DNA of 64,000 nucleotides, taken from Cnuella takakiae (GTDB lineage Bacteria; Bacteroidota; Bacteroidia; Chitinophagales; Chitinophagaceae). The notes under the pieces are model-generated. The model saw only the letters and a program-made list of their open reading frames with translations. It made no database searches and was not told where the DNA came from. A program made the translations under genes and the position numbers. Each line of letters begins with the position of its first letter. The stretch's first letter is position 1. The DNA is taken from the NCBI RefSeq assembly GCF_001953305.1, contig NZ_MTFE01000010.1:5495269-5559268 (forward strand), in the 5' to 3' direction. Shown one piece after another: positions 2,467-36,191 of this stretch.

Positions 2467-2510
2467 CGAGACTTTAGTCACGCTATTGACCGATAGCCTG
2501 AATATCTTTG
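2467..2510 (+). promoter_or_regulatory. Operator 1 and -7 element of the Crp-type regulator gene
   Basis: The inverted repeat CGAGA-ctttag-TCACG (2467-2482) has one mismatch to the window-wide motif CGTGA-N6-TCACG. Its centre is 35.5 bp before the end of TATCTTTG (2503-2510), a full TAnnTTTG -7 element. The ATG at 2515 lies only 5 nt further on, so transcript and reading frame may start almost together. The site predicts autoregulation of the regulator. Confidence 0.7.
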
Positions 2511-2514
2511 TAAT

Positions 2515-3162
2515 ATGACAGAAAAAGAGCTTTCTCTACATTTTCCTTCCTTGGAAAAGGGCTTGATTGATGAGTTATTAAAAGTAGCGGATGTAAAAAC
2601 GGTGCAGGAAGGTGATGTCCTAATGCGTACAGGGCAGAATATCCGTTCGGCCCTATTAGTTCTAGATGGGCTGGTTAAAATCTACCGGGAAGATGATCAG
2701 GGTAATGAATTCTTTATGTATTACATAAATTCGGGTAAGGCCTGTGCTATTTCTCTGGTTTGTGCATTAGGGCAGGAAACGAGCGGACTCATGGCAAAAG
2801 CTGTGACACCTGCAACTGTTTTAAGTATTCCCGTACATTATGTAGATGAATGGATGGGCAAATACAAGAGCTGGGCGCAATTTGCAGTTAGTTCTTACCG
2901 GGAACGCTTCGATGAACTTTTGCAAACCATTGACCATATAGCTTTTCGTAACATGGACGAACGCCTGTTGTTTTACTTAAAACGTCATCAAGAAAAGTTG
3001 AACAGTAACATTATACCTATTTCTTTTACTGAAATTGCACACGAGCTGAACTCTTCTCGTGAAGTCATCTCCCGCCTCATGAAGAAACTGTCTGACAGGG
3101 GTATTGTAAAGCTACATCGTTCTCACATTGAAGTCATTAATTTAGAAAAATTGCTTTCGTGA
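2515..3162 (+). CDS. Crp/Fnr-family transcriptional regulator, predicted master activator of the sulfur regulon
   Basis: This 215-residue protein has the usual Crp/Fnr layout. An N-terminal cyclic-nucleotide-binding-type beta barrel (about 15-115) contains GDVLMRTGQ and LVLDGLVKIYRED. A dimer helix (about 118-150) follows, then a winged helix-turn-helix (about 165-215). The recognition helix reads R182-E183-V-I-S-R187. The Arg-Glu-x-x-x-Arg pattern is the one Crp uses to read GTGA, and GTGA is the core of the twelve operators in this window. The Fnr N-terminal Cys cluster is absent, but Cys77 and Cys83 lie in the sensory barrel; a thiol or persulfide switch is a guess. Operator 1 precedes the gene and operator 2 overlaps its stop codon. 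Confidence 0.9.
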   Translation: MTEKELSLHFPSLEKGLIDELLKVADVKTVQEGDVLMRTGQNIRSALLVLDGLVKIYREDDQGNEFFMYYINSGKACAISLVCALGQETSGLMAKAVTPATVLSIPVHYVDEWMGKYKSWAQFAVSSYRERFDELLQTIDHIAFRNMDERLLFYLKRHQEKLNSNIIPISFTEIAHELNSSREVISRLMKKLSDRGIVKLHRSHIEVINLEKLLS

Positions 3163-3202
3163 CCTATATCACGAAATAAAAAAAGAGGATCAACCAGATT
3201 TG
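3155..3202 (+). promoter_or_regulatory. Operator 2 (perfect 22-bp palindrome) and -7 element of the TauE/SafE gene
   Basis: TTTCGTGA (3155-3162) and TCACGAAA (3169-3176) form perfect 8-bp arms around a 6-bp spacer, the best-conserved copy of the motif. The left arm includes the TGA stop of the regulator gene. CAGATTTG at 3195-3202 is a -7-like element whose end is 36.5 bp from the palindrome centre, placing the site near -41.5 as for a class II activator. Confidence 0.8.
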
Positions 3203-3220
3203 CATGCAAATAATAATAGC

Positions 3221-4036
3221 ATGGAAATCGCAGGATATGTAGCCTCTTTAATCATAGGGGTATCACTTGGTCTTATCGGAGGCGGAGGTTCAATCTTAAC
3301 TGTACCGGCTTTGGTTTACCTGTTCAATGTTGAACCGGTACTGGCTACTTCGTATTCATTAATGATCGTTGGTACAACAAGCTTAGTAGGCGCAGTACCA
3401 AAATATAAGCAAGGTTTAGTCAACCTAAAAACGGCGCTTATATTTGGTATCCCCTCTATTGCAGCGGTGTTTGCTACACGTAAGTTTATTGTTCCGCTTA
3501 TTCCATCAGAAGTATTTACCATTGGAAGCTTTGTTATCACCAAGAACATATTAATGATGCTCATTTTTGCGGTATTGATGGTTGCCGCTTCCATCTCTAT
3601 GATCAGAGAAAAAAGCGTAAAGGATGAGAACCCAGAGCCAGCAGAGCAAAAATTTAATTACCCATTGATCTTTCTTGAGGGCGCCATTGTCGGCACATTA
3701 ACAGGGCTTGTCGGAGCAGGTGGAGGGTTTCTGATTATACCAGCTTTGGTATTGTTGAGTAAACTGCCCATGAAGCAAGCTGTGGGCACCTCACTGTTGA
3801 TTATTGCAGCCAAGTCCATTATTGGCTTTACAGGAGATTTATCAAACTACAAAATGGACTGGCATTTATTACTGATCGTAACAGCGCTTGCCATTGCAGG
3901 TATATTCATTGGTAATGGTTTAAGTAAGAAAGTGCCAGGACAAAAACTGAAAAAAGGATTTGGCTGGTTTGTGCTCGTGATGGGTATTTACATCATTATA
4001 AAAGAAATGCTATTTCCAGGCACCGGAGGACATTAA
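3221..4036 (+). CDS. TauE/SafE-family membrane exporter (sulfite/sulfonate type)
   Basis: This is a polytopic inner-membrane protein of 271 residues with the two-fold repeat of TauE/SafE carriers. The glycine-rich motifs LGLIGGGGSILTVPALVYL near the N-terminus and GLVGAGGGFLIIPALVLL in the middle are the family signature. Members export or import sulfite, sulfoacetate and related anions. Here export of sulfite made by the neighbouring persulfide dioxygenases fits, but the substrate is inferred. The ATG at 3221 is chosen because a possible TTG start at 3200 lies inside the -7 element. The gene stands alone behind operator 2. Confidence 0.88.
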   Translation: MEIAGYVASLIIGVSLGLIGGGGSILTVPALVYLFNVEPVLATSYSLMIVGTTSLVGAVPKYKQGLVNLKTALIFGIPSIAAVFATRKFIVPLIPSEVFTIGSFVITKNILMMLIFAVLMVAASISMIREKSVKDENPEPAEQKFNYPLIFLEGAIVGTLTGLVGAGGGFLIIPALVLLSKLPMKQAVGTSLLIIAAKSIIGFTGDLSNYKMDWHLLLIVTALAIAGIFIGNGLSKKVPGQKLKKGFGWFVLVMGIYIIIKEMLFPGTGGH

Positions 4037-4050
4037 TCTAGACCATACCC

Positions 4051-4096
4051 TCGTGATTTCAGTCACGAAAAAGTACAAAATCTAAAGTCAATTTTA
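4051..4096 (+). promoter_or_regulatory. Operator 3 and -7 element of the first persulfide dioxygenase gene
   Basis: TCGTGA-tttcag-TCACGA (4051-4068) is a perfect palindrome apart from its spacer. CAATTTTA at 4089-4096 ends 36.5 bp from its centre and is a weak -7 element (TAnnTTTG consensus). The next ATG is at 4120. Confidence 0.75.
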
Positions 4097-4119
4097 CAAT
4101 ATAAAGTAAACTCCATAAA

Positions 4120-5535
4120 ATGAAAATAGAGCAGATTTACACAGGATGTTTAGCACAAGGTGCATATTACATCGAAAGCGAAGGTGAAGCAGTCGTTATT
4201 GACCCACTGCGTGAAGTAGAACCTTACCTGCAAAAAGCAGAAAAGGCCGGCGCTAAAATCAAATACGTTTTTGAAACACACTTTCACGCTGATTTTGTTT
4301 CAGGGCACGTTGACCTTTCAAAACAAGCGGGAGCACCCATTGTTTACGGTCCCAATGCGAATCCTACATTCGATGCAATCATAGCAGAAGATGGCCAGGA
4401 ATTCAAGGTAGGGAAAGTAACTTTTAAAGTGCTGCACACACCTGGGCATACAATGGAAAGCACCTGTTACCTGCTGAAAGATGAGAGTGGCAAAAATGTC
4501 GCCCTGTTTTCCGGAGACACCTTGTTTATTGGCGATGTGGGAAGACCCGACCTAGCCCAGAAAGCAGCAAGCATGACACAGGAAGACTTAGCTGGAACAC
4601 TATTCGATTCCTTGCGCAACAAAGTAATGACACTCGCTGATGATATCATTGTCTACCCTGCCCACGGTGCGGGAAGTGCTTGTGGAAAGAACATGAGTAA
4701 AGAAACTTCTGATACGTTGGGTAATCAAAAGAAAACGAACTATGCTTTAAGAGCAAACATGACCAGGGAAGAGTTTATCAAGGAAGTCACCGACGGGCTG
4801 GCTACGCCACCTGCCTATTTCCCGCTCAACGTTATGTTGAATAAGCAAGGATATGAGAGCATCACAGAAGTCATGCAGCGTGGAAACCAGGCATTGTCGC
4901 CCGATGCATTTGAAGCAGCCGCAAATGAAACAGGAGCCGTTATATTAGATACACGAGATCCGCAAACATTTGCTAAAGGATTCATCCCGAACTCAATCAA
5001 TATTGGCATTGATGGCAGCTTTGCTCCTTGGGTTGGCGCTTTGATTCCGGATATCAAACAACAGATTCTTTTGGTAACTGATGAAGGCAGAGAGGAAGAA
5101 GTGATTACCCGGCTTGCAAGAGTTGGCTACGATTACACCATTGGTTACCTGAAAGGCGGCTTCAATGTCTGGAAAGAGGCCGGTAAAGAAGTAGACCAAA
5201 TCAACTCCATTGATGCTACAGAACTGGCGCAAAAACTAAAAGAAGAAAAGATTAAAGTGCTTGATGTGCGCAAGCCTGGAGAATACATTAGTGAACACGT
5301 TGATGGTGCTCTAAACTTGCCGCTGGACAACATCAATGATCACCTGGCGCAACTGGATAAAGATCATTCATATTTTGTTCACTGTGCTGGTGGATATCGC
5401 TCCATGATCTTTAATTCTATCCTGAAGGCAAGGGGTTTTGATAATCTTGTTGATATCAAAGGCGGGTTCAAGGCTATTAAAGATGCAGGTTCAATCCCTG
5501 TTTCGGATTATGTATGCCCCAGCACACTTAAATAA
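4120..5535 (+). CDS. Persulfide dioxygenase-rhodanese fusion (ETHE1/CstB-like)
   Basis: This 471-residue cytoplasmic protein joins a metallo-beta-lactamase-fold dioxygenase (about 1-245) to two rhodanese domains (about 255-355 and 365-465). The dioxygenase has THFHAD at 53-58, HTPGH at 106-110 and SGDTLFIGD at 131-139. His56, His110 and Asp133 match the 2-His-1-Asp iron site of ETHE1 in order and approximate spacing. The last rhodanese has HCAGGYRS with Cys422; the middle one lacks a catalytic Cys at the loop. This is the layout of CstB, which oxidises low-molecular-weight persulfides to thiosulfate through a sulfite intermediate. The gene is followed by a strong terminator and is a single-gene unit behind operator 3. 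Confidence 0.92.
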   Translation: MKIEQIYTGCLAQGAYYIESEGEAVVIDPLREVEPYLQKAEKAGAKIKYVFETHFHADFVSGHVDLSKQAGAPIVYGPNANPTFDAIIAEDGQEFKVGKVTFKVLHTPGHTMESTCYLLKDESGKNVALFSGDTLFIGDVGRPDLAQKAASMTQEDLAGTLFDSLRNKVMTLADDIIVYPAHGAGSACGKNMSKETSDTLGNQKKTNYALRANMTREEFIKEVTDGLATPPAYFPLNVMLNKQGYESITEVMQRGNQALSPDAFEAAANETGAVILDTRDPQTFAKGFIPNSINIGIDGSFAPWVGALIPDIKQQILLVTDEGREEEVITRLARVGYDYTIGYLKGGFNVWKEAGKEVDQINSIDATELAQKLKEEKIKVLDVRKPGEYISEHVDGALNLPLDNINDHLAQLDKDHSYFVHCAGGYRSMIFNSILKARGFDNLVDIKGGFKAIKDAGSIPVSDYVCPSTLK

Positions 5536-5572
5536 GGATTCTCAGAAATCACAAGACCGAAAGACTAATCGT

Positions 5573-5624
5573 AAAAGCCTTGCCCTGCCACATCCCATCG
5601 GCAATAAATGGCAAGGCTTTTCTA
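5573..5624 (+). terminator. Rho-independent terminator after the first dioxygenase gene
   Basis: AAAAGCCTTGCC (5573-5584) pairs exactly with GGCAAGGCTTTT (5610-5621) over 12 bp, with a 25-nt loop and a T-rich 3' side. It separates the dioxygenase from the porin gene. Confidence 0.8.
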
Positions 5625-5655
5625 ATTGACTTCAAACAATTTAAATTATTGCAAA

Positions 5656-7044: not shown

Positions 7045-7078
7045 TATCTCTAGCAAGCATTACACTTAATACAGTTCC

Positions 7079-7123
7079 CGTGACCAAAGTCACGTTACTG
7101 GTTAACAATACTTCCGAGATTTG
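7079..7123 (+). promoter_or_regulatory. Operator 4 and -7 element of the rhodanese-DsrE operon
   Basis: CGTGA-ccaaag-TCACG (7079-7094) is a perfect core. GAGATTTG at 7116-7123 is a -7-like element ending 36.5 bp from the palindrome centre. The first ATG is at 7215, leaving a leader of about 85 nt that contains a small inverted repeat, CATCAT-GTA-ATGATG (7156-7170). Confidence 0.72.
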
Positions 7124-7214
7124 AATAGAGCAGAAAAGCTCAATCAGCCCTTAAACATCATGTAATGATGAAGTGATTTTGGCCATAATAATTCCTGATA
7201 CCAAACAAAAAAAT

Positions 7215-7493
7215 ATGAAAAACAACCAGAAAACGATTATCGATGTGCGAACACCTGAAGAATTTAATAGTGGCCACGTAGCCAGCGCCATCAATGTTCC
7301 ACTTGACAAGGTGCCGCAACGCATACCTGAATTTCAACAAATGCAAACACCAATAGAAGTGTATTGTCGCAGTGGCAACCGAAGTGCAATGGCGGTATCT
7401 ATTTTAAAACAAAATGGGATAACAGAAGTTTATAACGGCGGCGGATTGGATGAAATGCTGCAAAAAATGAATCGTGATGCTGTCGCTGATTAA
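7215..7493 (+). CDS. Single-domain rhodanese sulfurtransferase
   Basis: This 92-residue cytoplasmic protein is one complete rhodanese domain. It has the entry motif IDVRTPEEFNSGHV and the active-site loop YCRSGNRS, whose Cys carries the persulfide. It starts at ATG 7215; the GTG further upstream gives an unrelated hydrophobic extension. It is the first gene of a tightly packed operon (7215-8691) and overlaps the next gene by 17 nt, suggesting translational coupling. The pair of small rhodaneses may relay sulfur between thiosulfate or persulfide donors and the dioxygenases. Confidence 0.88.
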   Translation: MKNNQKTIIDVRTPEEFNSGHVASAINVPLDKVPQRIPEFQQMQTPIEVYCRSGNRSAMAVSILKQNGITEVYNGGGLDEMLQKMNRDAVAD

Positions 7494-7785
7494 AAGACTG
7501 TTTGGCTCAAGGGCCAACCTGAAAGAGGCGCTGTCAAAAGGCGCTCTAATTGTAGATGTACGAACAAAGAAAGAATACGAAGCGGGGCATATTGATGGCT
7601 CTCTCAATGTTCCGCTGGACACCATAACATCTCAACTGCCTGTCATAAAAAAAAGAGGCAAACCGATAATAACCGTTTGTGCCAGCGGTACACGCAGTGC
7701 CATTGCCAGAGGCATTTTAAAGAACGCTGATGTGGAGGCCTATAATGGCGGGTCTTGGCTCAGCTTTAAAAACAAATACAAATGA
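7477..7785 (+). CDS. Second single-domain rhodanese
   Basis: This 102-residue protein has a basic amphipathic N-terminus (MLSLIKRLFGS), the rhodanese motif VDVRTKKEYEAGHI and an active-site loop VCASGTRS. The loop composition differs from the gene before it, so the two are not simple duplicates. The ATG at 7477 overlaps the upstream reading frame, and its own stop overlaps the next start (ATGA at 7782). It is related to the rhodanese half of YgaP, whose membrane half resembles the next gene. Confidence 0.85.
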   Translation: MLSLIKRLFGSRANLKEALSKGALIVDVRTKKEYEAGHIDGSLNVPLDTITSQLPVIKKRGKPIITVCASGTRSAIARGILKNADVEAYNGGSWLSFKNKYK

Positions 7786-8229: not shown

Positions 8230-8232
8230 AAA

Positions 8233-8691: not shown

Positions 8692-8694
8692 CGG

Positions 8695-8739
8695 CGTGAC
8701 AAGTGTCACGAAGTAAGTAGTTTATGCCTTATAATTTTA
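8695..8739 (+). promoter_or_regulatory. Operator 5 and -7 element of the second dioxygenase operon
   Basis: CGTGA-caagtg-TCACG (8695-8710) is a perfect core. TAATTTTA (8732-8739) is a good -7 element ending 36.5 bp from the palindrome centre. The ATG at 8755 follows 15 nt later. Confidence 0.75.
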
Positions 8740-8754
8740 AAAAAATGATTGAAT

Positions 8755-10107
8755 ATGGATATAAAACAATGGGAAGACAAGAACCTTTCGCACTTTAGCT
8801 ACGCTGTTTTAAGTGAGTCTGAAAAAAAAGTGGTTCTAATAGACCCTGCCCGTAACCCTCAACCTTACTACGATTATGCAAAACAGCACGGTGCGCAAAT
8901 TGTAGCTGTCATTGAAACTCATCCGCATGCTGATTTTGTCAGCAGCCATTTAGAGATTGCCGAAGTCACCGGAGCCATTATTTACGTGAGCAAATTGGTG
9001 CATGCACAATATCCGCATCAAACCTTTGATGAGGGTGATCAGATAGCGATAGGAAAAATCAGGCTTTCTGCTATCAATACACCAGGCCATTCACCAGACA
9101 GTATTAGCGTGAAACTGGAACATGAAGACAAAATTGAAGCTATCTTCACCGGAGACACCTTATTCATTGGCGACTGTGGCCGGCCGGATTTGCGGGAAGG
9201 AGCTGGCAATATCAAAGCCACCCGGCATGATTTGGCAAAGCAGATGTATTACTCTTTAAGAGAGAAGTTGGCCACACTGCCAGGCGAAACGAAAGTTTAC
9301 CCGGCACATGGAGCAGGCACGCTTTGTGGCAAGTCGTTGAGCAAGGCCCATAGCAGTACTATTGCCGCAGAACGAAAGACAAACTGGTCTTTGCAGGAAG
9401 CAACGGAAGAAGAATTTGTGACGAACCTGCTGACCGACCAACCGTTTGTGCCCCTTTATTTTCCATATGATGTGGAGTTGAACCGGAAAGGAGCACCTGC
9501 TTTTAATCAATCTATCAAGAAGGTCAATATAGCAGGTGAAATCAGCAATGAAGAAAGTGCACAAAGGTTAAATCCAGCACTGTGGATGATTGATGCAAGA
9601 AAAGCAGACACATACAAAAAAGGACACCTTCCCCACTCCATCAACCTTATGGAGGAAGGAAAGTTTGAAACCTGGCTGGGAAGCATCATCAAGCCCGGTG
9701 AAAAGTTTTACCTGGGCGGCGAATCGGAAACGCAACTGAAAAACCTTATTGCTCGTACGGCAGCCATTGGCTACGAGGAGCAGATTGAAGCAGCTTTTGT
9801 TATCAACTATGGTCAGCAGCATGCAGCGGAATTTAACCTCAACACCTTCAAAGCACAGCAGGAAAATTATACCATCATTGACGTTCGCAATCCTTCCGAG
9901 GTAAAGGAAGGAAAGCCTTTTTCAAACAGCCTGTCCATTCCATTAGCAGAGGTGAGAGAAAGAGTAGGCGAGATACCCACCGACAAACCCCTTGTGGTGC
10001 ATTGTGCCGGAGGCTATCGCAGTGCAGCCGCCAGTTCACTGCTTCAGTCAACTCTAAATGGCAAAGCAATTGTGTTTGACCTGGGAGAGGCTGTTAAAGC
10101 CTTTTAA
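8755..10107 (+). CDS. Second persulfide dioxygenase-rhodanese fusion
   Basis: This 450-residue protein has the same architecture as the 4120 gene: a metallo-beta-lactamase-fold dioxygenase (about 1-235) and two rhodanese domains. It has THPHADFVSSH, NTPGHSPDS and TGDTLFIGDCGRPDL, giving the His/His/Asp iron ligands, and a C-terminal rhodanese with HCAGGYRS. The middle rhodanese lacks the catalytic Cys. It is clearly diverged from the first copy, so it is an old paralogue, not a recent duplication. ATG 8755 is preferred over the TTG two codons upstream. It leads an operon with the DUF302, AcfC-like and SoxB-like genes. Confidence 0.9.
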   Translation: MDIKQWEDKNLSHFSYAVLSESEKKVVLIDPARNPQPYYDYAKQHGAQIVAVIETHPHADFVSSHLEIAEVTGAIIYVSKLVHAQYPHQTFDEGDQIAIGKIRLSAINTPGHSPDSISVKLEHEDKIEAIFTGDTLFIGDCGRPDLREGAGNIKATRHDLAKQMYYSLREKLATLPGETKVYPAHGAGTLCGKSLSKAHSSTIAAERKTNWSLQEATEEEFVTNLLTDQPFVPLYFPYDVELNRKGAPAFNQSIKKVNIAGEISNEESAQRLNPALWMIDARKADTYKKGHLPHSINLMEEGKFETWLGSIIKPGEKFYLGGESETQLKNLIARTAAIGYEEQIEAAFVINYGQQHAAEFNLNTFKAQQENYTIIDVRNPSEVKEGKPFSNSLSIPLAEVRERVGEIPTDKPLVVHCAGGYRSAAASSLLQSTLNGKAIVFDLGEAVKAF

Positions 10108-10133
10108 TAAAAATCATTAAAAAACAAGCAGCT

Positions 10134-15683: not shown

Positions 15684-15742
15684 GTAGGCATTATAGCCGT
15701 GACTTATGTCACGGCTATAATGCCTACTCTCACGTAATTTTC
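15684..15742 (+). promoter_or_regulatory. Operator 6 inside a 44-bp inverted repeat, with -7 element
   Basis: The core CGTGA-cttatg-TCACG (15698-15713) is embedded in a much longer inverted repeat: 15684-15703 pairs perfectly with 15708-15727 (20-bp arms, 4-nt centre TTAT). On the forward strand TAATTTTC (15735-15742) ends 36.5 bp from the centre, the spacing of the other sites. The first ATG is at 15746. The long arms could also form a cruciform or mRNA hairpin on the opposite side. Confidence 0.75.
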
Positions 15743-15745: not shown

Positions 15746-15838
15746 ATGAAGCAATGGTCAATGTGGTTAAAATTAACCCTTGCCTGCATTTTATGCATCG
15801 GCACTGTTTGATTTATTGTTGTTATCTCAAAAGAATGA
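15746..15838 (+). pseudogene. Small membrane-peptide ORF with an internal stop
   Basis: ATG 15746 lies 4 nt after the -7 element of operator 6. It encodes a short hydrophobic peptide (MKQWSMWLKLTLACILCIGTV) and a TGA at 15809-15811, then resumes as FIVVISKE to a TGA at 15836-15838. A Trp-to-stop change is the simplest explanation. The peptide resembles a one-helix membrane protein with Cys in the helix, but no family is recognised. It leads the operon containing the DUF2892 remnant and the rhodanese-thioredoxin gene. Confidence 0.4.
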
Positions 15839-15851
15839 TTATGTGATAAAC

Positions 15852-16054
15852 ATGGGCTCCGCCGACCGTATGTTCCGAACTTCTTTAGCTGTAACAGGGG
15901 CTATTCTTTGATACGGACGTTATTATTGGTACGGTTGCCGTTGTACTGTTGGTGCTTGCCGGAATTTTCATTTTAACCAGCTTCGTGGGATTTTGTCTCC
16001 TTTATACCCTGTTAGGCATGAACACTTGTCCAGACGAAGCAATCAATCAAGAGT
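15852..16054 (+). pseudogene. DUF2892 (YgaP-type) membrane protein, frameshifted
   Basis: From about 15852 the frame gives MGSADRMFRTSLAVTGAIL, the standard opening of Bacteroidota DUF2892 proteins (NxGSxDRxxR), then hits TGA near 15909. The other frame, entered around 15898-15905, continues with DTDVIIGTVAVVLLVLAG and FVGFCLLYTLLGMNTCP, the standard second half. A one-base change in or near the GGGG run explains the break. The frame then runs on into the next gene without a natural stop at the family end. The intact family is a two-helix membrane protein linked to rhodaneses. Confidence 0.6.
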
Positions 16055-16753
16055 ATGATGACAATAAATTCAATTCCCCTTTTACTGATTTTACTGACAG
16101 TGGCGTCCTGCGCTTCCAATGCACAAAAAATGGACATTTCCGTAATTCAATTTAAAGAGGGAATTTCAAAACAGGATATACAAATATTAGATGTGCGCAC
16201 ACAGGCAGAGTATAATAGCGGGCATTTGAAAAATGCTTTTTTGGCCGACTGGACACAACCAAAAGTGTTTGAAGAAAGGATAAAATCGCTTGATCAAAAC
16301 AGGCCTGTTTACACCTATTGCTTAAGCGGAGGCAGAAGCAGTGCCGCAGCGGAGAAGTTGCGTCAGCTAGGCTTTAAAGAAGTGTATAATATGGAAGGCG
16401 GAATAATGGCCTGGAAAGCTGCTCAAATGCCGGTGGAAGGAACCCCCACTACAAAACCGATGATCATGGAAGAATATTTAGCCCTCATACCGAAAGACAA
16501 AACCGTTTTGGTTGACATTGGTGCAGTATGGTGCCCGCCATGCAAAAAAATGGCGCCTGTAATTGCTGATTTGGTTCGGAACAGTAAGGATACTTTTGAA
16601 CTGGTGAACATTGATGGCGGTGCTCAGGAAGGCCTGGCTAGTCAACTAAAGGCCGATGCTTTCCCAACATTTATCATTTATAAAGAGGGCCAAGAAATAT
16701 GGCGGCAAAGCGGAATTGTTTCAAAAGAAACTCTACTTCAGCACTTGCAATAA
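16055..16753 (+). CDS. Exported lipoprotein fusing rhodanese and thioredoxin domains
   Basis: The 232-residue protein starts with a lipoprotein signal (LLLILLTVASC, lipid-anchored Cys about residue 19). A rhodanese domain (about 30-128) carries ILDVRTQAEYNSGHL and the active loop YTYCLSGGRSS. A thioredoxin domain (about 133-232) carries VWCPPCKKM. The fusion suggests that a persulfide formed on the rhodanese Cys is reduced by the tethered thioredoxin site, or the reverse, in the periplasm; that mechanism is inference. The gene is the last and only intact member of the operon behind operator 6 and is closed by a terminator. Confidence 0.88.
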   Translation: MMTINSIPLLLILLTVASCASNAQKMDISVIQFKEGISKQDIQILDVRTQAEYNSGHLKNAFLADWTQPKVFEERIKSLDQNRPVYTYCLSGGRSSAAAEKLRQLGFKEVYNMEGGIMAWKAAQMPVEGTPTTKPMIMEEYLALIPKDKTVLVDIGAVWCPPCKKMAPVIADLVRNSKDTFELVNIDGGAQEGLASQLKADAFPTFIIYKEGQEIWRQSGIVSKETLLQHLQ

Positions 16754-16815: not shown

Positions 16816-16860
16816 TGTGACATAAGTCACGAAATCGCAACGGAAAGTTTTTCAACTTGA
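16816..16860 (+). promoter_or_regulatory. Operator 7 and weak -7 element of the cytochrome-SoxB operon
   Basis: TGTGA-cataag-TCACG (16816-16831) matches the motif with one change in the left arm and is the classic Crp half-site on that side. CAACTTGA (16853-16860), at the regulon spacing of 36.5 bp, is only a weak match to TAnnTTTG. The ATG at 16877 follows 16 nt later. Confidence 0.68.
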
Positions 16861-16876: not shown

Positions 16877-17893
16877 ATGAAAGAGGCCTTACGTTCAAAT
16901 ATGTTTTTGGTTATACTTTTCCTGATAATAGGAATCGTTATAGCCGTTGAGCTTATTAACAATAAGAGCTCTGAAAAGCAAATAGTGGTAAAGCCTGAAA
17001 CTCCCGATAGTACCTGGGTGGCACCCAGCTTATTTTCTGATCAACTTACACAAGGTAAGCAACGAGAGATGGTAATTTATGGACAAGAACTTATAACAAA
17101 TACGGCAAAATATCTAGGCCCTCACGGTTCGGTTTCACAGATAACCAATGGCATGAATTGCCAAAACTGTCATTTAGATGCAGGCACCAGGCCATGGGGC
17201 AATAATTATAGTGCTGTTTATTCAACCTACCCGAAGTTTAGAGCCCGAAGCGGCACGATAGAGAACATATACAAGCGGGTGAACGACTGCTTTGAAAGAA
17301 GCTTGAATGGAAAGCCATTGGACACTGCCTCATATGAAATGCAGTCAATTTACACCTACCTCAAATGGCTGGGCCAGGATGTATCTAAAGGCAAAAAACC
17401 ACATAGTGCCGGCTTAGCCACGCTGGCTTTCATGGACCGAGCTGCCGACCCGCAAAAAGGCAAGATTATTTATACCAATTCTTGTCAAAGTTGCCATGGG
17501 CAAAATGGTGAAGGCGTGCCAAACCCGGATGGCATTACATTCATCTATCCACCCCTTTGGGGAGATCAAAGCTATAATGACGGTGCAGGCCTGTACCGCA
17601 TTACTAAATTTTCATCATTTGTAAAGAGCAACATGCCGTTCAACCAGGCCACACATCGGTCGCCTAAATTAACGGATGAAGAAGCCTGGGATGTTGCTGC
17701 CTTTGTCAACTCGCAACTCCGTCCCCATAAAGACCAAAGTAAAGATTGGGTTGATATTTCACAAAAATCAGTGGATGAGCCTTTTGGCCCTTATGTCGAC
17801 GGGTTCAGCGAGGCACAACACAAGTATGGTCCATTTAAACCCATACAAGGAGCCCGTAAAGCAAAAGCTGCAAATAAAAACATTGCCAAATAA
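16877..17893 (+). CDS. Membrane-anchored dihaem cytochrome c, thiosulfate dehydrogenase (TsdA)-like
   Basis: The 338-residue protein has an N-terminal membrane helix (about 8-25) and two class I cytochrome c domains with haem sites CQNCH (95-99) and CQSCH (203-207). The segment VNDCFERSLNGKPL (Cys138) matches TsdA, where a Cys replaces Met as axial ligand of the catalytic haem. KSNMPF (Lys250, Met253) fits the second haem. TsdA oxidises thiosulfate to tetrathionate and can work in reverse. No mobile electron acceptor is encoded nearby. The SoxB-like gene follows 12 nt downstream, so the two are surely co-transcribed. Confidence 0.82.
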   Translation: MKEALRSNMFLVILFLIIGIVIAVELINNKSSEKQIVVKPETPDSTWVAPSLFSDQLTQGKQREMVIYGQELITNTAKYLGPHGSVSQITNGMNCQNCHLDAGTRPWGNNYSAVYSTYPKFRARSGTIENIYKRVNDCFERSLNGKPLDTASYEMQSIYTYLKWLGQDVSKGKKPHSAGLATLAFMDRAADPQKGKIIYTNSCQSCHGQNGEGVPNPDGITFIYPPLWGDQSYNDGAGLYRITKFSSFVKSNMPFNQATHRSPKLTDEEAWDVAAFVNSQLRPHKDQSKDWVDISQKSVDEPFGPYVDGFSEAQHKYGPFKPIQGARKAKAANKNIAK

Positions 17894-19616: not shown

Positions 19617-19661
19617 CGTGATTTTTGTCACAAGTGCCTTAATTATAATCGTTCATTTTTG
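19617..19661 (+). promoter_or_regulatory. Operator 8 and -7 element of the YeeE/YedE pair
   Basis: CGTGA-tttttg-TCACA (19617-19632) has one change in the right arm. CATTTTTG (19654-19661) ends 36.5 bp from the centre and is a good -7 element. The ATG at 19676 follows 14 nt later. Confidence 0.73.
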
Positions 19662-20239: not shown

Positions 20240-20270
20240 AATAATTATCAACAATTCAACCTAATTAGAA

Positions 20271-28498: not shown

Positions 28499-28560
28499 AA
28501 CTCAAAATAAGTCTAATTATTTTTGACTCTCTATTTCGATTTCAAATTAATAGTCTGTTG

Positions 28561-29328
28561 ATGAATTTTTCCCTTTCCAAAATCCCCGCCCGTACCGTAC
28601 AGCCGCGTAAGCATGGATTGACCGTAGTGAGCGACAAAGGGCTTAGCTTAATGGAAACAAAAAACCTAATGTCAGGTGCAGCGCCCTATGTTGATATGAT
28701 AAAACTTGCCTTTGGTACGGCACTGGTTACACCTATGCTTAAAGAAAAAATCCAGTTGTACCAATCCTATAATGTCCCGGTTTTCTTTGGCGGGCTTTTG
28801 TTCGAAGCCTTTGTCATTCGAAATGAACTGGCTGCATTTGAACGACTGGTTGATGAACACAACATTCCTTGTATGGAAATCTCCGATGGCGCTATTGATA
28901 TTTCGCACGAACAAAAATGCGCCTATATCCGTCGTTTTAGCCAGGAGAGAGTCGTGCTGAGTGAGATCGGTTCTAAGGACAAGGACAAAGTACAGGTAAC
29001 GCCACCATACAAATGGATCCAGTTGATGCAGGCAGAACTGGAGGCAGGTTCTTCCTATCTTATAGCTGAAGCTAAGGAGCTGGGTAATGTGGGCTTGTAC
29101 CGCGATTCAGGTGAAGTGAGGGAAGGACTGGTACAGGAAATCTTAACAAAAATTCCTGCTGAAAAGATTATTTGGGAAGCACCTGCAAAAGATCAGCAAT
29201 TAAATTTCATCGAGCTGTTAGGCTGCAATGCCAATCTCGGGAACATCAACCCCTCAGAAATCATCGCATTGGAAGCAATGCGTGTTGGTTTACGAAGTGA
29301 CAGTTTCTCGTTTTTCTTGAATAATTAA
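28561..29328 (+). CDS. comA: Phosphosulfolactate synthase (ComA)
   Basis: The 255-residue protein is a TIM-barrel of the ComA family. Matching segments are KPRKHGLTVVSDKGLSL-type opening (PRKHGLTVVSDKG), YVDMIKLAFGTALV, VPVFFGGLLFEAF, MEISDGAIDI and IIWEAPAKDQQLNFIELLG. ComA adds sulfite to phosphoenolpyruvate to give phosphosulfolactate, the first step to coenzyme M in methanogens and to sulfolactate in some bacteria. Here it could trap sulfite made by the two persulfide dioxygenases. ATG 28561 is chosen over the TTG one codon before. No ComB/ComC was seen. A terminator follows directly. Confidence 0.9.
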   Translation: MNFSLSKIPARTVQPRKHGLTVVSDKGLSLMETKNLMSGAAPYVDMIKLAFGTALVTPMLKEKIQLYQSYNVPVFFGGLLFEAFVIRNELAAFERLVDEHNIPCMEISDGAIDISHEQKCAYIRRFSQERVVLSEIGSKDKDKVQVTPPYKWIQLMQAELEAGSSYLIAEAKELGNVGLYRDSGEVREGLVQEILTKIPAEKIIWEAPAKDQQLNFIELLGCNANLGNINPSEIIALEAMRVGLRSDSFSFFLNN

Positions 29329-29332
29329 ATAG

Positions 29333-29368: not shown

Positions 29369-29734
29369 TTACTTCAATGTTTGCAGCAGGCGTTCTTCAA
29401 TCACCTGTTGAAACGCCTTTTTCGGAAGCGCACCGGGCTGCATGACAGGCTCACCCTTTACTGGTATAAATAAAAAAGTAGGAATACTCCGGATGCCAAA
29501 TATCGCAGAAAGTTCTCCTTCTTTTTCTGTATCTATTTTATAGATCACTAATTCGCCTTCATATTGCTTTGAGAGTTCTTCCAGCACTGGCGCTACCATT
29601 TTACAGGGTCCGCACCAGTCGGCATAAAAATCAATGACTGCAGGAACAGAACCTTTGTATTTCCATTCCTGCTCCTTTTCATAGTCAAAAACCTTGTCCT
29701 TAAAATCCTGTGTTGTTAATTGAATCGTCGCCAT
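29369..29734 (-). CDS. Thioredoxin
   Basis: This 121-residue cytoplasmic protein has the thioredoxin active site FYADWCGPCKM and the cis-Pro loop IRSIPTFLFI, so it should be a general disulfide reductase. The start at ATG 29734 (MATIQLTTQDF) is chosen because the upstream in-frame sequence contains the promoter and operator 9. Placing a thioredoxin under the sulfur regulon fits a need to reduce persulfides and disulfides on rhodaneses or dioxygenase products. Confidence 0.92.
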   Translation of the reverse strand: MATIQLTTQDFKDKVFDYEKEQEWKYKGSVPAVIDFYADWCGPCKMVAPVLEELSKQYEGELVIYKIDTEKEGELSAIFGIRSIPTFLFIPVKGEPVMQPGALPKKAFQQVIEERLLQTLK

Positions 29735-29749
29735 TTTACTGCTTTGTTG

Positions 29750-29794
29750 TAAAGATAAAATTGAAGTGAATGATAAACCGTGACACGAGTCACA
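29750..29794 (-). promoter_or_regulatory. Operator 9 and -7 element of the thioredoxin gene
   Basis: CGTGA-cacgag-TCACA (29779-29794 on the forward strand) has one changed base. On the reverse strand TATCTTTA (29750-29757) is a good -7 element ending 36.5 bp from the palindrome centre. The ATG is 16 nt further on. Confidence 0.75.
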
Positions 29795-29796
29795 CC

Positions 29797-29824
29797 AAAA
29801 AGCCCTTTGTAGAAACAAAGGGCT
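29797..29824 (-). terminator. Reverse-strand terminator after the methyltransferase gene
   Basis: AGCCCTTTGT (29801-29810) pairs with ACAAAGGGCT (29815-29824) around AGAA, and the AAAA at 29797-29800 gives a T run on the reverse strand. It ends the gene at 29859-30455 just before operator 9. Confidence 0.85.
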
Positions 29825-29858
29825 CAACCAAAACCAACTGCCACGTGGACGTAGTTTA

Positions 29859-30455
29859 TTATAACTTTTGGCCTACTAGCTGTAAAACGGCTGCCTTGCC
29901 TTTATGAAATTTACCCTCATTCAATTCAATTTCTTTTTGTCCGCAGGATAGCAAATGGAGAAAAGGAAAATCACTGCAAATGGAAGGCGCATCATATAAC
30001 ATTTGCTTGTCCTTCGGCCCGCCAGAATCAAATTCTACCTGTTCCTTCGCAAATGCCTCTAAAATGAGATACCCGCCTGAGTTTAGCGATTTAAATATCT
30101 GTTCATGGAATAAAGAGCGCAGGGCCTGAGGCAGATGCACATAAATCAAGGCAACAGCGTCATATTTTTTCTCGGCCTTGTAGGTCTCAATTTCCTGAAC
30201 CCAATAGTTGATGGTTACATTTTTTGCAGTGGCTTGTAGCAGCGCTTTTTCTCTGGCCACCTCGCTAAAGTCAAATGCATCAACCAGCCAACCTTTCGAA
30301 GCTGCATAGATTGCATTGCGTCCTTCCCCTTCAGCCGGCAACAAAATTGAACCGGGTTTGTGTTTATCAATATACTGCTTAAAGTAATGGTTGGGCTCTT
30401 GCCCATACACTGATGCATTTTCTATATAGCGTGTATTCCAAAACTCTTGTTTCAT
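29859..30455 (-). CDS. Class I SAM-dependent methyltransferase (TehB/thiol methyltransferase-like)
   Basis: This 198-residue protein begins MKQEFWNTRYIENASVYG, close to the FWdxRY opening of TehB-like and thiopurine/thiol methyltransferases. The SAM site is GSILLPAEGEGRNAIYAASKGW and the acidic strand VDAFDFSEVA; YDAVALIYVHLP is motif IV. The ATG at 30455 fits a -7 element 6 nt away. S-methylation of a toxic thiol or sulfide species is possible given the regulon, but the substrate is unknown and TehB-like members act on diverse small molecules. Confidence 0.78.
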   Translation of the reverse strand: MKQEFWNTRYIENASVYGQEPNHYFKQYIDKHKPGSILLPAEGEGRNAIYAASKGWLVDAFDFSEVAREKALLQATAKNVTINYWVQEIETYKAEKKYDAVALIYVHLPQALRSLFHEQIFKSLNSGGYLILEAFAKEQVEFDSGGPKDKQMLYDAPSICSDFPFLHLLSCGQKEIELNEGKFHKGKAAVLQLVGQKL

Positions 30456-30460
30456 AAGAG

Positions 30461-30505
30461 CAAAAATGCAAGGATGCTGTCGCAATTGTCGTGATAACAG
30501 TCACG
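30461..30505 (-). promoter_or_regulatory. Operator 10 and -7 element of the methyltransferase gene
   Basis: CGTGA-taacag-TCACG (30490-30505) is a perfect core. On the reverse strand CATTTTTG (30461-30468) ends 36.5 bp from its centre. The ATG at 30455 lies 5 nt after the -7 element, so the message may be leaderless or nearly so. Confidence 0.77.
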
Positions 30506-30518
30506 TCAAACCCATATC

Positions 30519-31748
30519 TTACCTAAGCTCCGGACAGCGGGTGCTTTTCCATAAGAACTTTGCAGTACAGCACATGCGTAAATGTGCCAATAACCCACCG
30601 GCTCCTGTCAAAGCTGCTACGAAAACAAAGGTAACAGACAGACCAAATTTGTCAGCCAGAAAGCCCGAAAGTAAAGCACCCGCCACATAGCCGCTGTCCC
30701 GCCAAAAACGGAAGATGCTTAAGCTTTCGGAACGTTGTTGGGGGTGGGTGTGTTCAGCAATGACCGTTAGAAAATTAGGATAAACCAAGGCTGTTCCCAG
30801 GCCCATCAGTACCATCGCCGCCAGGGCCATATAAAAGTTAGAAGCATAGGTCAACAGTAGCAGACCAATAGCTTGTAGTAACATGCCAGTGGTTATTAAT
30901 TGCTTTTTACAGAAAACATCGCCCATTTTACCGGTAGCCATCTGCCCAAGGCCCCATACAGCAGGATATACTCCTGCCAACAATCCAATTTCAGACAGAT
31001 TAAACTGTTTGTTTAGCAATAACACAGGCAGCAATCCCCAGATTACCCCATCGTTAAGATTATTTATAAAACCACTGATGGTAACACTACCAAGGTTGTA
31101 ATGCTGAAAAGTCGTTTGCTTCCAGATACACTTCAAAATCGACTGCTTGCTTTGCTGTGCTTCTACCTGGACATGCCTCTCTGTATCTTTTACAAATAAA
31201 AGCGTTAGGATCAATCCTCCCATCGAAAAAAGAATGCCTGGCAGAAATGGATAAAAACTAAAGCCTTTTGCCGATGCAATCTGCGTAGCCAGAAAGGCAG
31301 CAAAGCCTACTGTTAAGTATCCTGCAAACTCATTCAAGCCCATTGCGAAGCCACGATCTTTTTCACCAACCAGGTCAATTTTCATCATAACGGTTGCCGA
31401 CCAGGCCAGACCTTGGTTGATGCCTAATAAAATATTAGCGGCAATTACCCAGCTCCATTCTTGTGCATACATCAATAAATAGGGCACCGGAAGAGCGGCA
31501 GCCCAGCCGATCAGCAAAACCCGCCTGCGGTTGTATCGATTCGCTAGCTTTCCTGCAACTAGGTTGAAAAGAGCCTTTACGCTTCCAAAAGCTATGATAA
31601 AGGACAGAAGTGCTGTATAGCTGTTAATACCAAGCGTTTCGGCCAATCCTGGCAAAACAGCCCGTTCCAAGCCAATCATGCTGCCCACAAACGCATTTAT
31701 CAATACTAATAGATAGAACTGCCGCCAATTTGCTTTTAGACCTTGCAC
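30519..31748 (-). CDS. Major facilitator superfamily transporter
   Basis: This protein of about 409 residues has 12 predicted helices in two halves of six, with the basic loop GKLANRYNRRRVL after helix 2 as in MFS carriers. A long ORF extends to 31799, but that part would overlap operator 11 and the -7 element. GTG at 31748 (LKANWRQFYLLVLINAF follows) is therefore the better start. No close named family is recognised, so export of sulfite, thiol compounds or a drug are all open. It is one of the two divergent genes sharing operator 11. Confidence 0.82.
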   Translation of the reverse strand: MQGLKANWRQFYLLVLINAFVGSMIGLERAVLPGLAETLGINSYTALLSFIIAFGSVKALFNLVAGKLANRYNRRRVLLIGWAAALPVPYLLMYAQEWSWVIAANILLGINQGLAWSATVMMKIDLVGEKDRGFAMGLNEFAGYLTVGFAAFLATQIASAKGFSFYPFLPGILFSMGGLILTLLFVKDTERHVQVEAQQSKQSILKCIWKQTTFQHYNLGSVTISGFINNLNDGVIWGLLPVLLLNKQFNLSEIGLLAGVYPAVWGLGQMATGKMGDVFCKKQLITTGMLLQAIGLLLLTYASNFYMALAAMVLMGLGTALVYPNFLTVIAEHTHPQQRSESLSIFRFWRDSGYVAGALLSGFLADKFGLSVTFVFVAALTGAGGLLAHLRMCCTAKFLWKSTRCPELR

Positions 31749-31763
31749 ACTTTTTTTGTAACG

Positions 31764-31836
31764 CAAAATAATCTTACTAAAAGATTTCAGGAGTGACACA
31801 AGTCACGGGTGAGTAACTGCATGAACAATAAGTTTG
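31764..31836. promoter_or_regulatory. Operator 11, divergent: one palindrome and two -7 elements
   Basis: AGTGA-cacaag-TCACG (31792-31807) lies between divergent MFS and DUF983 genes. Forward: TAAGTTTG (31829-31836), a full -7 consensus, ends 36.5 bp from the centre and is 18 nt before ATG 31854. Reverse: TTATTTTG (31764-31771) ends 35.5 bp from the centre and is 16 nt before GTG 31748. A single operator thus sits at the activating position for both genes. Confidence 0.75.
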
Positions 31837-31853
31837 CATTATAAGCAAATTTT

Positions 31854-32294
31854 ATGCAAAATGAAGGTCAAAGGCGGTCACCCAATTATCTTTTCAGCCT
31901 CCTGCAACTCAAATGCCCACGCTGCCGGCAAGGCGATATGTTTCTGCAAAAAAGTTCCTACAAAAAGGGAATGATGAAAATGTATGATACCTGTTCTTTT
32001 TGCGAACAGAAAATGGAAATAGAGCCTGCATTTTACTATGGCACGGGTTACGTAAGCTACGCTTTATCGGTAGCGCTAACTGTCGCCAGCTTCATTGCAT
32101 GGTGGGTTATTATCGGGATGTCGCTGAAGGATGATCGCTTTTTCTGGTGGATAGGCTTCAATGCTGTTCTTTTGCTTGCTACACAGCCTTATCTGATGCG
32201 CTTATCAAGAACGGTGTGGTTATCGTTCTTTGTTCGGTATAAAAAAGACGCTGCCTGCGATTGGATTGCTCAGGATGAACATACTGTCGGGTAG
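31854..32294 (+). CDS. DUF983 membrane protein
   Basis: The 146-residue protein has an N-terminal zinc-ribbon-like pair, LKCPRCRQGDMF and DTCSFCEQKM (Cys-x2-Cys twice), then two hydrophobic helices (LSVALTVASFIAWWVIIG and WWIGFNAVLLLATQPYLM). This is the DUF983 pattern. Members are small membrane proteins of unknown role, sometimes near heme-copper oxidase genes. Control by operator 11 suggests a role linked to sulfur exposure, possibly of the respiratory chain, but that is speculation. Confidence 0.82.
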   Translation: MQNEGQRRSPNYLFSLLQLKCPRCRQGDMFLQKSSYKKGMMKMYDTCSFCEQKMEIEPAFYYGTGYVSYALSVALTVASFIAWWVIIGMSLKDDRFFWWIGFNAVLLLATQPYLMRLSRTVWLSFFVRYKKDAACDWIAQDEHTVG

Positions 32295-33226: not shown

Positions 33227-33238
33227 TTCCTATTCATC

Positions 33239-33958: not shown

Positions 33959-34493
33959 CAATTGAACAAATATCTGATCTATAACTTAAAAAGTAAAGTG
34001 ACTACCCTTAGCGGGAAACAGCTTTAAAAAGTTTGCTTGCATCAGTATCCATTTTGGAAGACGATTTGACCACTTCATCAAAACCACCGCTTAGGAGTTG
34101 TAGTGCATGCTTTTTCGACTCACTTTTTTTGCCTGTCCTAATTTTAAAAGACGCAGTATTGGCACAGGATGACACCAACCTTTTACTAAATGTTGAAAGA
34201 AGAACACTAAAACTATTGCTGGCAAGACCAATTAGTTTATATGTACAAATTATGCAAGTGCTAAACCGATCATTACAAGGGTTGACATATTAATGTCCAA
34301 GATCTTTCTATATCCCACTCTTTATTAGGTTTATTTGTTTGTGCAGACATCATTACATGGCTCTTGTTGGAATAATCAAATACCTACTGCCATATTTTGG
34401 CTTCATTTTTTTTCATTTCAGGAAGAAGGGGCCGCTTCTTCCCCCTATTCATTCTGTTAATTTGTTTTTCTAGCCATAAAAAGGTCTATTTGT
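33959..34493. other. Intergenic stretch with a GC-rich hairpin, no gene recognised
   Basis: About 535 bp between convergent genes. GGAAGAAG (34421-34428) pairs with CTTCTTCC (34435-34442), a hairpin close to the end of the reverse-strand DUF2243 gene but without a T tract on that strand. No credible ORF is seen. Confidence 0.45.
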
Positions 34494-34988
34494 TCAAACC
34501 TGCTTGTATCGTTGCGAAACATTTGTTGAAGCTCCATCTTTTGAACCTGTACGGATGAACGCCCATCCTATCAGAATAAACAAAACGCCTGATGTAAGAA
34601 ATAAGTAGTCATACAAAGACAACCCTTGCAGCTCCACTACATGATGTATCCCTAAAATGTGATGGTCTATGATACCTTCAACTAAATTAAAGATACCCCA
34701 TCCTAAAACTAAGGAACCAAAGAATGTATTACCTGATAAAGGCACATCTTTTCGTTTTACAGCATTCCAAAGCATCCCGATTGAAATAGCGGTTGCCACC
34801 CATGTTAAGGCATGGAATAAGCCATCCCAAACCATGTTTGTTTTTGCATTAACCAATGTATCAGGAGGTAGTTTTGCAGAAAGCATATTGTGTAGCTGAA
34901 AAATCTGGTGGAATAATATTCCATCTACAAAGCCGCCCATGCCGATGCCCATGAGTGTGCCTGCTGCTATTAGAGGTTTGCTATTCAT
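34494..34988 (-). CDS. DUF2243 membrane protein
   Basis: The 164-residue protein has four helices. The signature GGFVDGILFHQIFQLHNML near the N-terminus, and the later IIDHHILGIHHV, match DUF2243, a family of four-helix membrane proteins with conserved His residues that may bind metal or haem. It is followed on the same strand by nothing close and preceded 17 nt upstream by the small Cys-containing gene. Its function is unknown. Confidence 0.82.
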   Translation of the reverse strand: MNSKPLIAAGTLMGIGMGGFVDGILFHQIFQLHNMLSAKLPPDTLVNAKTNMVWDGLFHALTWVATAISIGMLWNAVKRKDVPLSGNTFFGSLVLGWGIFNLVEGIIDHHILGIHHVVELQGLSLYDYLFLTSGVLFILIGWAFIRTGSKDGASTNVSQRYKQV

Positions 34989-35005
34989 TGTTTGCTATTT
35001 TTATG

Positions 35006-35218
35006 TTACGTTTTTATTGTTTTACCACCTTTATAAATAAATACTATGATGCCTGTAAATACGACAAAAGGCAATACTGAAGACAATAGGTTGTTGTAAA
35101 AATCGTCCCCGAATACTAATGCCCTAACCTCAGTTGCCTGTTTTGAACTGCACATTGTACAAGCCTCACTGGTAAGGGAAAAGAAAAACATTGCAAGGGT
35201 TGTAAGTATGACTTTCAT
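35006..35218 (-). CDS. Small one-helix membrane protein with CxxC motif
   Basis: This 70-residue protein has a signal peptide (MKVILTTLAMFFFSLTSEA), then CTMCSSKQATEV and a C-terminal membrane helix (VLPFVVFTGIIVFIYKGGK). The CxxC just after the signal is suited to bind metal or take part in thiol chemistry. Such short proteins occur next to DUF2243 genes in Bacteroidota, which fits the 17-nt spacing here. Operator 12 lies about 270 bp upstream on the same strand. The function is unknown. Confidence 0.65.
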   Translation of the reverse strand: MKVILTTLAMFFFSLTSEACTMCSSKQATEVRALVFGDDFYNNLLSSVLPFVVFTGIIVFIYKGGKTIKT

Positions 35219-36191
35219 ATAATGTCTATTTACTCTTTGAAGTGGATTGGAAATTAAGATTTTTGCACAATTTATAGGCGAGCGGAATTTTGTACGTTCA
35301 TGCTATTAGAACTTGCAACATAAATCGTAGCACATCCCAGTTCTCATCTAGCTTCGCTTTACTGTTTTGGTACAGCAATTACACCAAAATCCAGAAGCGA
35401 TACAAAATTTCTTTTATATATGAATATTATTTGTCAGAGAATGTACATCTGTCGTTGAAGGTAAGGCAGTACTTTATGTTACAATGTGACATAAGTCACG
35501 CCAACTAACGTTTCTGCATAGTAATGATTATACGATATTTACACCTTTAACCGGGTCAATACAAGCCCTATCTTATCTATCTCCCTTTAGATATCCTAAT
35601 TACACCACATTGATTAAATGAACCAAACTGGCCAGCTCTTCCTTTCTCTGGCACTTCTATAATAATATCGACATCATTTTGGCACGAATTCGCCGACGAA
35701 AGTTTCCATCCTTGGTCGACTGAAATATTAAGCAAACAATCATGAGAGATTTTGAGTTTTCAATCTATTAGATCTTCTGGCTCTAGGCCAAGTTAGTTCA
35801 CATTATCTAACATTATTAAATCATAAGCCCTCAACGATTTATGAAGGACAGCTGATACAAAGATTTAAATTTATCACTAAGGCGCGCTATCAAGGTTTTC
35901 TACTCCTGCGCATTAAGTTTGCCTCATGGGTTGTCGAAGAAAAAAGCCGACAATTTCGAAAAGAACAACACTCCCAGCGCTAAACTTATAAAATATTAAG
36001 TTTTTAAACTGTTTAAAGTTAATGTGTTAGGTTGAAGGCACTACCCTGAAACACTACTTTTTTTATTATTATTTAATAAGGTGTTCCGAAAATAATTTGC
36101 ATTCTTCTGAACAGCTTATTCAAGTCCTATATATGAGATATTTATACTTTTGAATTCTTCAAGTGCAGGTTGCACATTTAATGACGTATAA
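35219..36191. other. Long AT-rich intergenic stretch containing operator 12
   Basis: About 970 bp between the small CxxC gene and the HMA-AraC gene, both reverse strand. Apart from operator 12 no gene, repeat or RNA was recognised. It marks the boundary between the sulfur and the metal islands. Confidence 0.5.
35456..35500 (-). promoter_or_regulatory. Operator 12 with weak -7 element, target unclear
   Basis: TGTGA-cataag-TCACG (35485-35500) has the same core as operator 7. On the reverse strand TACCTTCA (35456-35463) lies at the regulon spacing of 36.5 bp and partly matches TAnnTTTG. The nearest downstream gene on that strand starts 238 bp further at 35218, so this would give a long leader. 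No forward-strand gene follows. Confidence 0.55.

Follow-up and report, generated by a model that had tools for sequence, protein, structure and literature searches.

Escherichia coli CRP occupies class II promoters at sites centred near -41.5, and CRP mutants at Glu181 with altered operator specificity are known. The repressors SoxR and BigR belong to the ArsR family, and HcpR, a Crp/Fnr protein of the Bacteroidota member Porphyromonas gingivalis, targets nitrosative-stress genes. SoxR and BigR are sulfur-responsive, and sulfur oxidation and YeeE-like transport come under repressors of this kind (PMC11582611); in the cst operon of Staphylococcus aureus (tauE, cstA, cstB, sqr), according to parts of PMC5480029, an exporter, a sulfurtransferase and a persulfide dioxygenase-sulfurtransferase stand under the dithiol sulfur sensor CstR. 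Here we analyse a 64-kb stretch of the 5.70-Mb genome of Cnuella takakiae (genome G000, C1:5495269-5559268, 44% G+C; hereafter the window), in which an island of sulfur genes carries twelve copies of the palindrome CGTGA-N6-TCACG and a gene for a Crp/Fnr regulator. To judge from their sequence, the twelve sites are very probably operators through which a Crp/Fnr activator of class II governs the handling of reactive sulfur; the regulator encoded at 2515-3162 would most likely be their reader, and a paralogue of 60% identity could share them.

A pattern match to CGTGA-N6-TCACG with at most one mismatch recovers exactly twelve places in the window, the same twelve as had been listed in the original prediction, made from the letters of this DNA, against a mean of 0.59 (standard deviation 0.82, maximum 3) in 100 dinucleotide shuffles. 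Sites with two mismatches were at chance level (18 in the window, 12.75 expected) and were dropped; the signal therefore resides in the twelve. All twelve are accompanied by a TAnnTTTG-like element, which we take to be the Bacteroidota -7 box, with its end 36 or 37 bp away from the centre of the palindrome when at least four of its six fixed bases are required (≥4/6; null mean 2.59, maximum 9), and nine of the twelve, in 11 strand matches, when at least five are required (≥5/6; null mean 0.42, maximum 4). The null consisted of moving each site locally by 15-150 bp at random, and neither observed count was ever reached in 5000 trials, which bears out the earlier claim that the spacing lies beyond chance. 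At distances of 20-49 bp other than 36-37 bp, no 5/6 element was found around the twelve sites. A -7 element had originally been counted at eleven sites: the fixed spacing holds, by the looser criterion for all twelve, but the elements at 4052, 16816 and 35485 are weak (4/6). Sites 2467 and 31792 have an element on each side. The distance is compatible with a centre near -41.5 relative to start points predicted from sequence. The sites had also been placed outside coding starts, which is so once start codons are chosen anew; as first called, however, three of them overlap open reading frames (ORFs), 3158 covering the final five bases of the regulator ORF, 15698 falling inside the 5' extension of a DUF202 ORF with a likely start at about 15650, and 31792 overlapping the mechanical GTG start of an MFS ORF. 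Site 35485 is the least certain of the twelve; the nearest ORF found downstream of it lies some 270 bp away.

The regulator is assigned to the Crp/Fnr superfamily by its domains (PF13545, 44 bits; PF00027, 34.2 bits; both over cut-off), gives Crp/Fnr fold matches in Foldseek, and has its nearest named relatives in the Chitinophagaceae, the best being from Flavisolibacter nicotianae (80% identity). In an alignment of 47 sequences its recognition helix carries R182, E183 and R187; the Arg-Glu-x-x-x-Arg helix put forward earlier is thus present, and reading of GTGA is predicted. Among 12 cNMP-binding matches in the genome this helix occurs only in the window protein and its 60% paralogue (L134 8723-9367; C1:4196722-4197366), which also has both cysteines of the window protein; one protein is truncated before the helix. 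By its NCBIfam score the regulator is not a cAMP-CRP (40.4 bits for the CRP equivalog, against a cut-off of 266). An Arg of the CRP binding cassette serves the phosphate of cAMP; in the profile alignment to a CRP chain the Arg-Ser for this phosphate is not found, T standing at the Arg position. The only cysteines of the regulator, Cys77 and Cys83, both lie in the effector domain, at what we take to be the place of the cAMP-binding cassette of CRP. With duplicate loci removed, Cys77 is present in 205/205 regulators and Cys83 in 176/205, a conserved pair as expected of a persulfide-sensing dithiol regulator. In an AlphaFold2 monomer model (mean pLDDT 86.9, pTM 0.61) they flank a short helix (78-81), the stretch 81-90 being among the least certain (mean 70). 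On a simple reading, by analogy with CstR, the two would form a sulfur-sensing dithiol.

The predicted regulon extends beyond the window and beyond the genus. In 55 partly redundant loci around relatives of the regulator, 97 sites were found where first-order resamplings give about 13. A -7 element (5/6) stands at 37 bp 51 times and at most eight times at any other distance; site and spacing are conserved in related genomes, a check that had been proposed beforehand, and the spacing also occurs in other families. An island homologue lies at most 1.3 kb downstream of 80 of the 110 strand-assigned sites (four of the 110 come from the own-genome loci L103, L104 and L109), most commonly an MBL-rhodanese (28), TauE (23) or YeeE (10), and the regulator itself also recurs. 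The window and seven relatives (L023, L025, L026, L028, L029, L036, L037) have a distance of 36 bp at the regulator's own promoter, and L054 has one of 37 bp; 36 bp is kept at this promoter and 37 bp at most other targets. Clades other than that of the window differ in the outer base or by one mismatch. Twenty-five loci have no CGTGA site: in 11 we found GTGA-N6-TCAC, its outer base changed, together with a -7 element (≥4/6) at 36-38 bp, and the remaining 14 have no perfect core, six of these (L035, L038-L041, L048) carrying a one-mismatch site at 37 bp before an MBL-rhodanese gene.

We also searched for a composite element, GTGA-N6-TCAC-N23-ANNTTTG, with the reversed pattern as control. In 194 genomes of the family it totals 198 matches against 26 for the control, and it is present in 57/72 genomes with a close regulator (E ≤1e-60), 13/23 with a middling one, 17/53 with a weak one and 7/46 with none. 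Among 143 typed sites outside the own genome, at least 52 have a typed regulator homologue within 10 kb, and at least 39 have one within 1.3 kb. Across the phylum the composite occurs in 72/392 genomes, where control matches occur too and several matches in one family (f18) resemble shared coding sequence. Twenty-two loci were fetched from other families: in six (L148, L152, L153, L154, L156, L157) the gene directly downstream is an island homologue, and in L158 the composite site adjoins a regulator homologue.

The rest of the own genome was examined by pattern matching. The island has 11 places with CGTGA-N6-TCAC and the remainder of the genome has 21; since the per-strand genome totals (21 and 19) are close to those of the reversed control (16 and 19), the outside count is background. 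A genome scan had been proposed beforehand, with similar density in random intergenic DNA as the outcome that would speak against the regulon; its result was favourable to the regulon, sites outside the island being at the control level. Only one (L087) of the 23 rows that make up these 21 places is without a covering ORF of at least 100 residues; in this one a -7 element likewise stands at 37 bp. The composite, searched genome-wide without any selection of targets, matches perfectly at seven places, of which five belong to the window. The other two precede second copies, one of TauE (60% identity) and one of an MBL-rhodanese gene with YeeE behind it (77% and 71%). With one or two mismatches the composite gives 63 and 40 matches per strand against 51 and 61 for the control, so only perfect and the best one-mismatch matches are meaningful. 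A first composite pattern, TANNTTTG with a loose spacer, had given only two matches because the first T of the -7 element is not conserved, and was replaced by ANNTTTG at fixed spacing.

The operator base varies together with residue 183 of the regulator. Two loci with Val for Glu183 (L068, L070) have GTAAC-N4-GTTAC palindromes, 37 bp from a -7 element, before YeeE. When any palindrome with 5-bp arms at 37 bp from a -7 element (5/6) was scanned for, in loci including the first 80 added, GTGAC was returned in 24 Glu loci, GTGAT in 15 and GTAAC in four, and GTAAC in seven Val loci. The counts by locus, which treat related loci as independent, come from a first sample, extended by 80 further regulator loci of the window's family, and a second of 80 loci, all outside it; nine duplicate loci were removed before the final covariation and cysteine counts, and figures barely changed. 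In the first sample, GTGA, GTAA and neither were found in 57, 4 and 33 Glu loci and in 0, 9 and 26 Val loci. In the second, the numbers for GTGA, GTAA, both and neither were 12, 0, 1 and 23 with Glu and 2, 21, 1 and 20 with Val; without duplicates (79 loci, none shared with the first sample) they become 12, 0, 1 and 23, and 2, 20, 1 and 20. All loci without duplicates give, in the same order, 65, 4, 1 and 53 for Glu (n = 123) and 2, 30, 1 and 47 for Val (n = 80). Ala183 occurs at one locus, with GTGA, and Ser183 at one, with neither. According to parts of PMC11253593, Arg185 and Glu181 of E. coli CRP contact the G4:C4 pair of TGTGA; the operator base that changes is the pair contacted by Glu181, so the association of Glu with GTGA and Val with GTAA is as expected. 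The four Glu183 loci with GTAA belong to one genus (L192, L193, L196, L202), whose state is possibly an intermediate of the specificity change. On the tree there are five changes of residue 183 and six of the operator. As a pattern, and in its match to known contacts, the covariation is strong; as a count of events it is weak.

We infer the following mechanism. A dimer of the regulator would read GTGA half-sites through Arg182, Glu183 and Arg187, occupy the place of a -33 element with its centre near -41.5, and recruit RNA polymerase to promoters with a TAnnTTTG-type -7 element. The activated genes would be those for the movement, oxidation and export of reactive sulfur, together with the regulator's own gene: a TauE-like exporter, MBL-rhodanese fusions resembling persulfide dioxygenases, rhodaneses, SoxB/SoxA-like proteins, YeeE and thioredoxin. 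Sulfane sulfur may be the signal, or else a linked change of thiol redox state at Cys77/Cys83. Such genes could instead be held by a repressor that leaves the sites when sulfur arrives, since comparable genes are repressed by CstR (in parts of PMC5480029), BigR and SoxR. We regard this as improbable: the fixed spacing of 36-37 bp fits activation, and among 91 sites aligned by their arms and -7 element, in which the spacer is free, TTG occurs in 0/91 at 19-23 bp before the -7 element, because the operator's own bases occupy the -33 place, and in 0 to 4 of 91 at 15-18 bp. The palindromes might also be a dispersed repeat or hairpin element, as site 15698 lies within a 44-bp imperfect inverted repeat (15684-15727) for which a hairpin is also possible, but this can be virtually dismissed, given that the core and flanks vary, only the arms and the -7 element (by which the sites were chosen) being kept, and that the spacing to the -7 element is fixed.

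Activation by this regulator also has to be weighed against other readers and other signals. GTGA-N6-TCAC is the motif of Crp proteins in general, 12 cNMP-binding matches occur in the genome, and 16 of the 22 composite loci from other families are without an island homologue directly downstream, as if the sites served cAMP-CRP or some other Crp-like protein, with the sulfur genes forming a fraction of a general regulon. This is unlikely in view of the restriction of the Arg-Glu-x-x-x-Arg helix to the window protein and its paralogue (the truncated protein aside), of the background level of the motif outside the island, and of the tracking of the operator base with residue 183 in the regulator's subfamily; cAMP-CRP in particular is opposed by the low CRP equivalog score and the T at the cAMP-phosphate position. 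A more serious possibility, if somewhat below an even one, is that the regulator senses something else, such as oxygen, nitric oxide, general thiol stress or a small ligand: Crp/Fnr relatives sense many signals, a cysteine pair is found in the solved structure 3dv8 as well, and Cys83 is absent in 29/205 regulators, but most of the recognised targets, across many genera, are sulfur genes, and Cys77 is invariant.

Several observations weigh against an activator regulon read by this protein and tuned to sulfur. The paralogue has the same Arg-Glu-x-x-x-Arg helix, and either protein could bind the predicted operators; a structure from another phylum (3dv8) has cysteines at both aligned places; and site presence in the 55 loci is, contrary to expectation, not significantly tied to TauE/MBL-rhodanese (26/44 with these genes, 4/11 without, p 0.20). 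By our criterion 53/123 Glu and 47/80 Val loci have no core site, and exceptions occur among those that do (4 GTAA alone and 1 both of 70 Glu; 2 GTGA alone and 1 both of 33 Val). The covariation would be compatible with repression too, and corrected for ancestry (108 rows) it is not significant, with one independent pair on supported branches and five on all; over 200 random pairings the supported pair was concordant in 153, without difference in 46 and opposite in one. An earlier correction (71 rows) had two pairs on supported branches, and both corrections were underpowered. We accordingly put forward only tentatively, at close to even chances, the broader proposal that Crp/Fnr activators of one family, spread across the Bacteroidia and invariant at one cysteine, respond to sulfane sulfur and control how reactive sulfur is handled, and that a single exchange in the recognition helix, between Glu183 and Val, has rewired their operators between GTGA and GTAA more than once with promoter geometry fixed.

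Regulator gene and predicted operators in the window (positions of the window; distances run from the palindrome centre to where the -7 element ends)
Feature	Position	Strand	-7 element	Context	Remarks
Crp/Fnr regulator, 215 aa	2515..3162	+			Pfam HTH_Crp_2 and cNMP_binding above cut-off
Operator	2467..2482	+	TATCTTTG 2503-2510 (+, 36 bp); TATTTTTG 2438-2445 (-, 37 bp)	upstream of regulator	1 mismatch
Operator	3158..3173	+	CAGATTTG 3195-3202	before TauE-like exporter (3200-4036)	same target in relatives
Operator	4052..4067	+	CAATTTTA 4089-4096, weak	before MBL-rhodanese fusion 1 (4120-5535)	same target in relatives
Operator	7079..7094	+	GAGATTTG 7116-7123	before two rhodanese genes (7173-7785)	
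Operator	8695..8710	+	TAATTTTA 8732-8739	before MBL-rhodanese fusion 2 (8749-10107)	same target in L019, L020
Operator	15698..15713	+	TAATTTTC 15735-15742	leads to apparently split YgaP-like transmembrane gene and rhodanese-thioredoxin gene (16055-16753)	
Operator	16816..16831	+	TCAACTTG 16852-16859, weak	before SoxA/TsdA-like cytochrome c (16877-17893) and SoxB-like protein (17906-19603)	
Operator	19617..19632	+	CATTTTTG 19654-19661	before YeeE/YedE half-genes (19676-20795)	same target in relatives
Operator	29779..29794	-	TATCTTTA 29750-29757	before thioredoxin (29369-29827)	thioredoxin homologue preceded by site in L034, L153
Operator	30490..30505	-	CATTTTTG 30461-30468	before TPMT-like methyltransferase (29859-30485)	same target in L051
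Operator	31792..31807	.	31829-31836 (+, 37 bp); 31764-31771 (-, 36 bp)	between divergent MFS (30519-31799, -) and DUF983-like (31854-32294, +)	
Operator	35485..35500	-	TACCTTCA 35456-35463, weak	nearest downstream ORF 35006-35218, then DUF2243 (34494-34988)	

Profile searches of the main ORFs of the window gave the TauE-like exporter, two MBL-rhodanese fusions, rhodaneses, an OprD-like porin and a DsrE-like protein, as well as the SoxA/TsdA-like cytochrome, the YeeE halves, RND efflux genes, TlpA/redoxin-like proteins, thioredoxin, the TPMT-like methyltransferase and MFS. The fusions are weakly similar to Blh, a sulfur transferase/dioxygenase (55 and 53 bits against a cut-off of 625), the two SoxB-like proteins score 320 and 252 bits against a cut-off of 550, and the DUF983-like label is weak (E 0.0022, below the Pfam cut-off). 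Some island genes are without a site of their own. The statement in the original prediction that the regulon defines the island was too strong, as two further predicted targets lie elsewhere in the chromosome and parts of the island, the RND efflux genes for instance, are not immediately preceded by a listed site. Of the members it had added, thioredoxin and the methyltransferase recur behind sites in relatives, and the MFS and DUF983-like genes are candidates from the window alone. The YeeE halves are separate genes, the C-terminal half first, and the apparently split YgaP-like gene occupies 15750-16050, between its site and the gene for the rhodanese-thioredoxin protein. At 1938..2302 (-), behind the -7 element on the minus side of site 2467, lie apparently decayed divergent genes, fragments resembling OsmC and a pyridoxal-phosphate-dependent enzyme; searched separately, these gave E 1.6e-4 and 2.2e-4, both below Pfam cut-offs. 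A ComA-like phosphosulfolactate synthase gene stands within the island at 28558-29328. A conjugative coupling-protein gene borders the island at 62-1135, which suggests a mobile origin.

In the open-licence literature we found no description of the regulon, of the sensor proposal or of a natural specificity change of this kind, some queries being blind to the slash in "Crp/Fnr"; a word search of the Flavobacterium start-site paper (PMC9723704) gave one unrelated passage. The best match among solved chains is the putative Crp/Fnr regulator of Eubacterium rectale (3dv8, E 2.1e-26). HcpR of P. gingivalis shares the Crp/Fnr fold (Foldseek 9day, TM-score 0.56-0.66) at 16-17% identity. The TGTGA-N6-TCACA-type operator and the Arg-Glu-x-x-x-Arg helix (Arg180, Glu181 and Arg185 in parts of PMC11253593) are as at class II promoters of E. 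coli CRP, from which the window regulator differs by its effector-domain cysteine pair, its Bacteroidota-type -7 element, a small sulfur regulon and a CRP score below cut-off. The same target logic is seen in CstR and its cst operon as described in parts of PMC5480029; however, CstR is a CsoR-like repressor and the window protein a Crp/Fnr protein that is probably an activator, and no sqr was found among the subset of window ORFs scanned by profile. SoxR and BigR are likewise repressors of another family. If the proposal is right, the regulator would be a candidate master regulator of sulfide and polysulfide handling for the Bacteroidota, with a motif and spacing precise enough for genome-wide target prediction, and, one amino acid and one operator base having apparently changed together, its rewiring would be directly testable. 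A task described for repressors such as CstR, BigR and SoxR would then be done by activators, and the exchange at residue 183 would be a natural counterpart of the Glu181 mutants of CRP.

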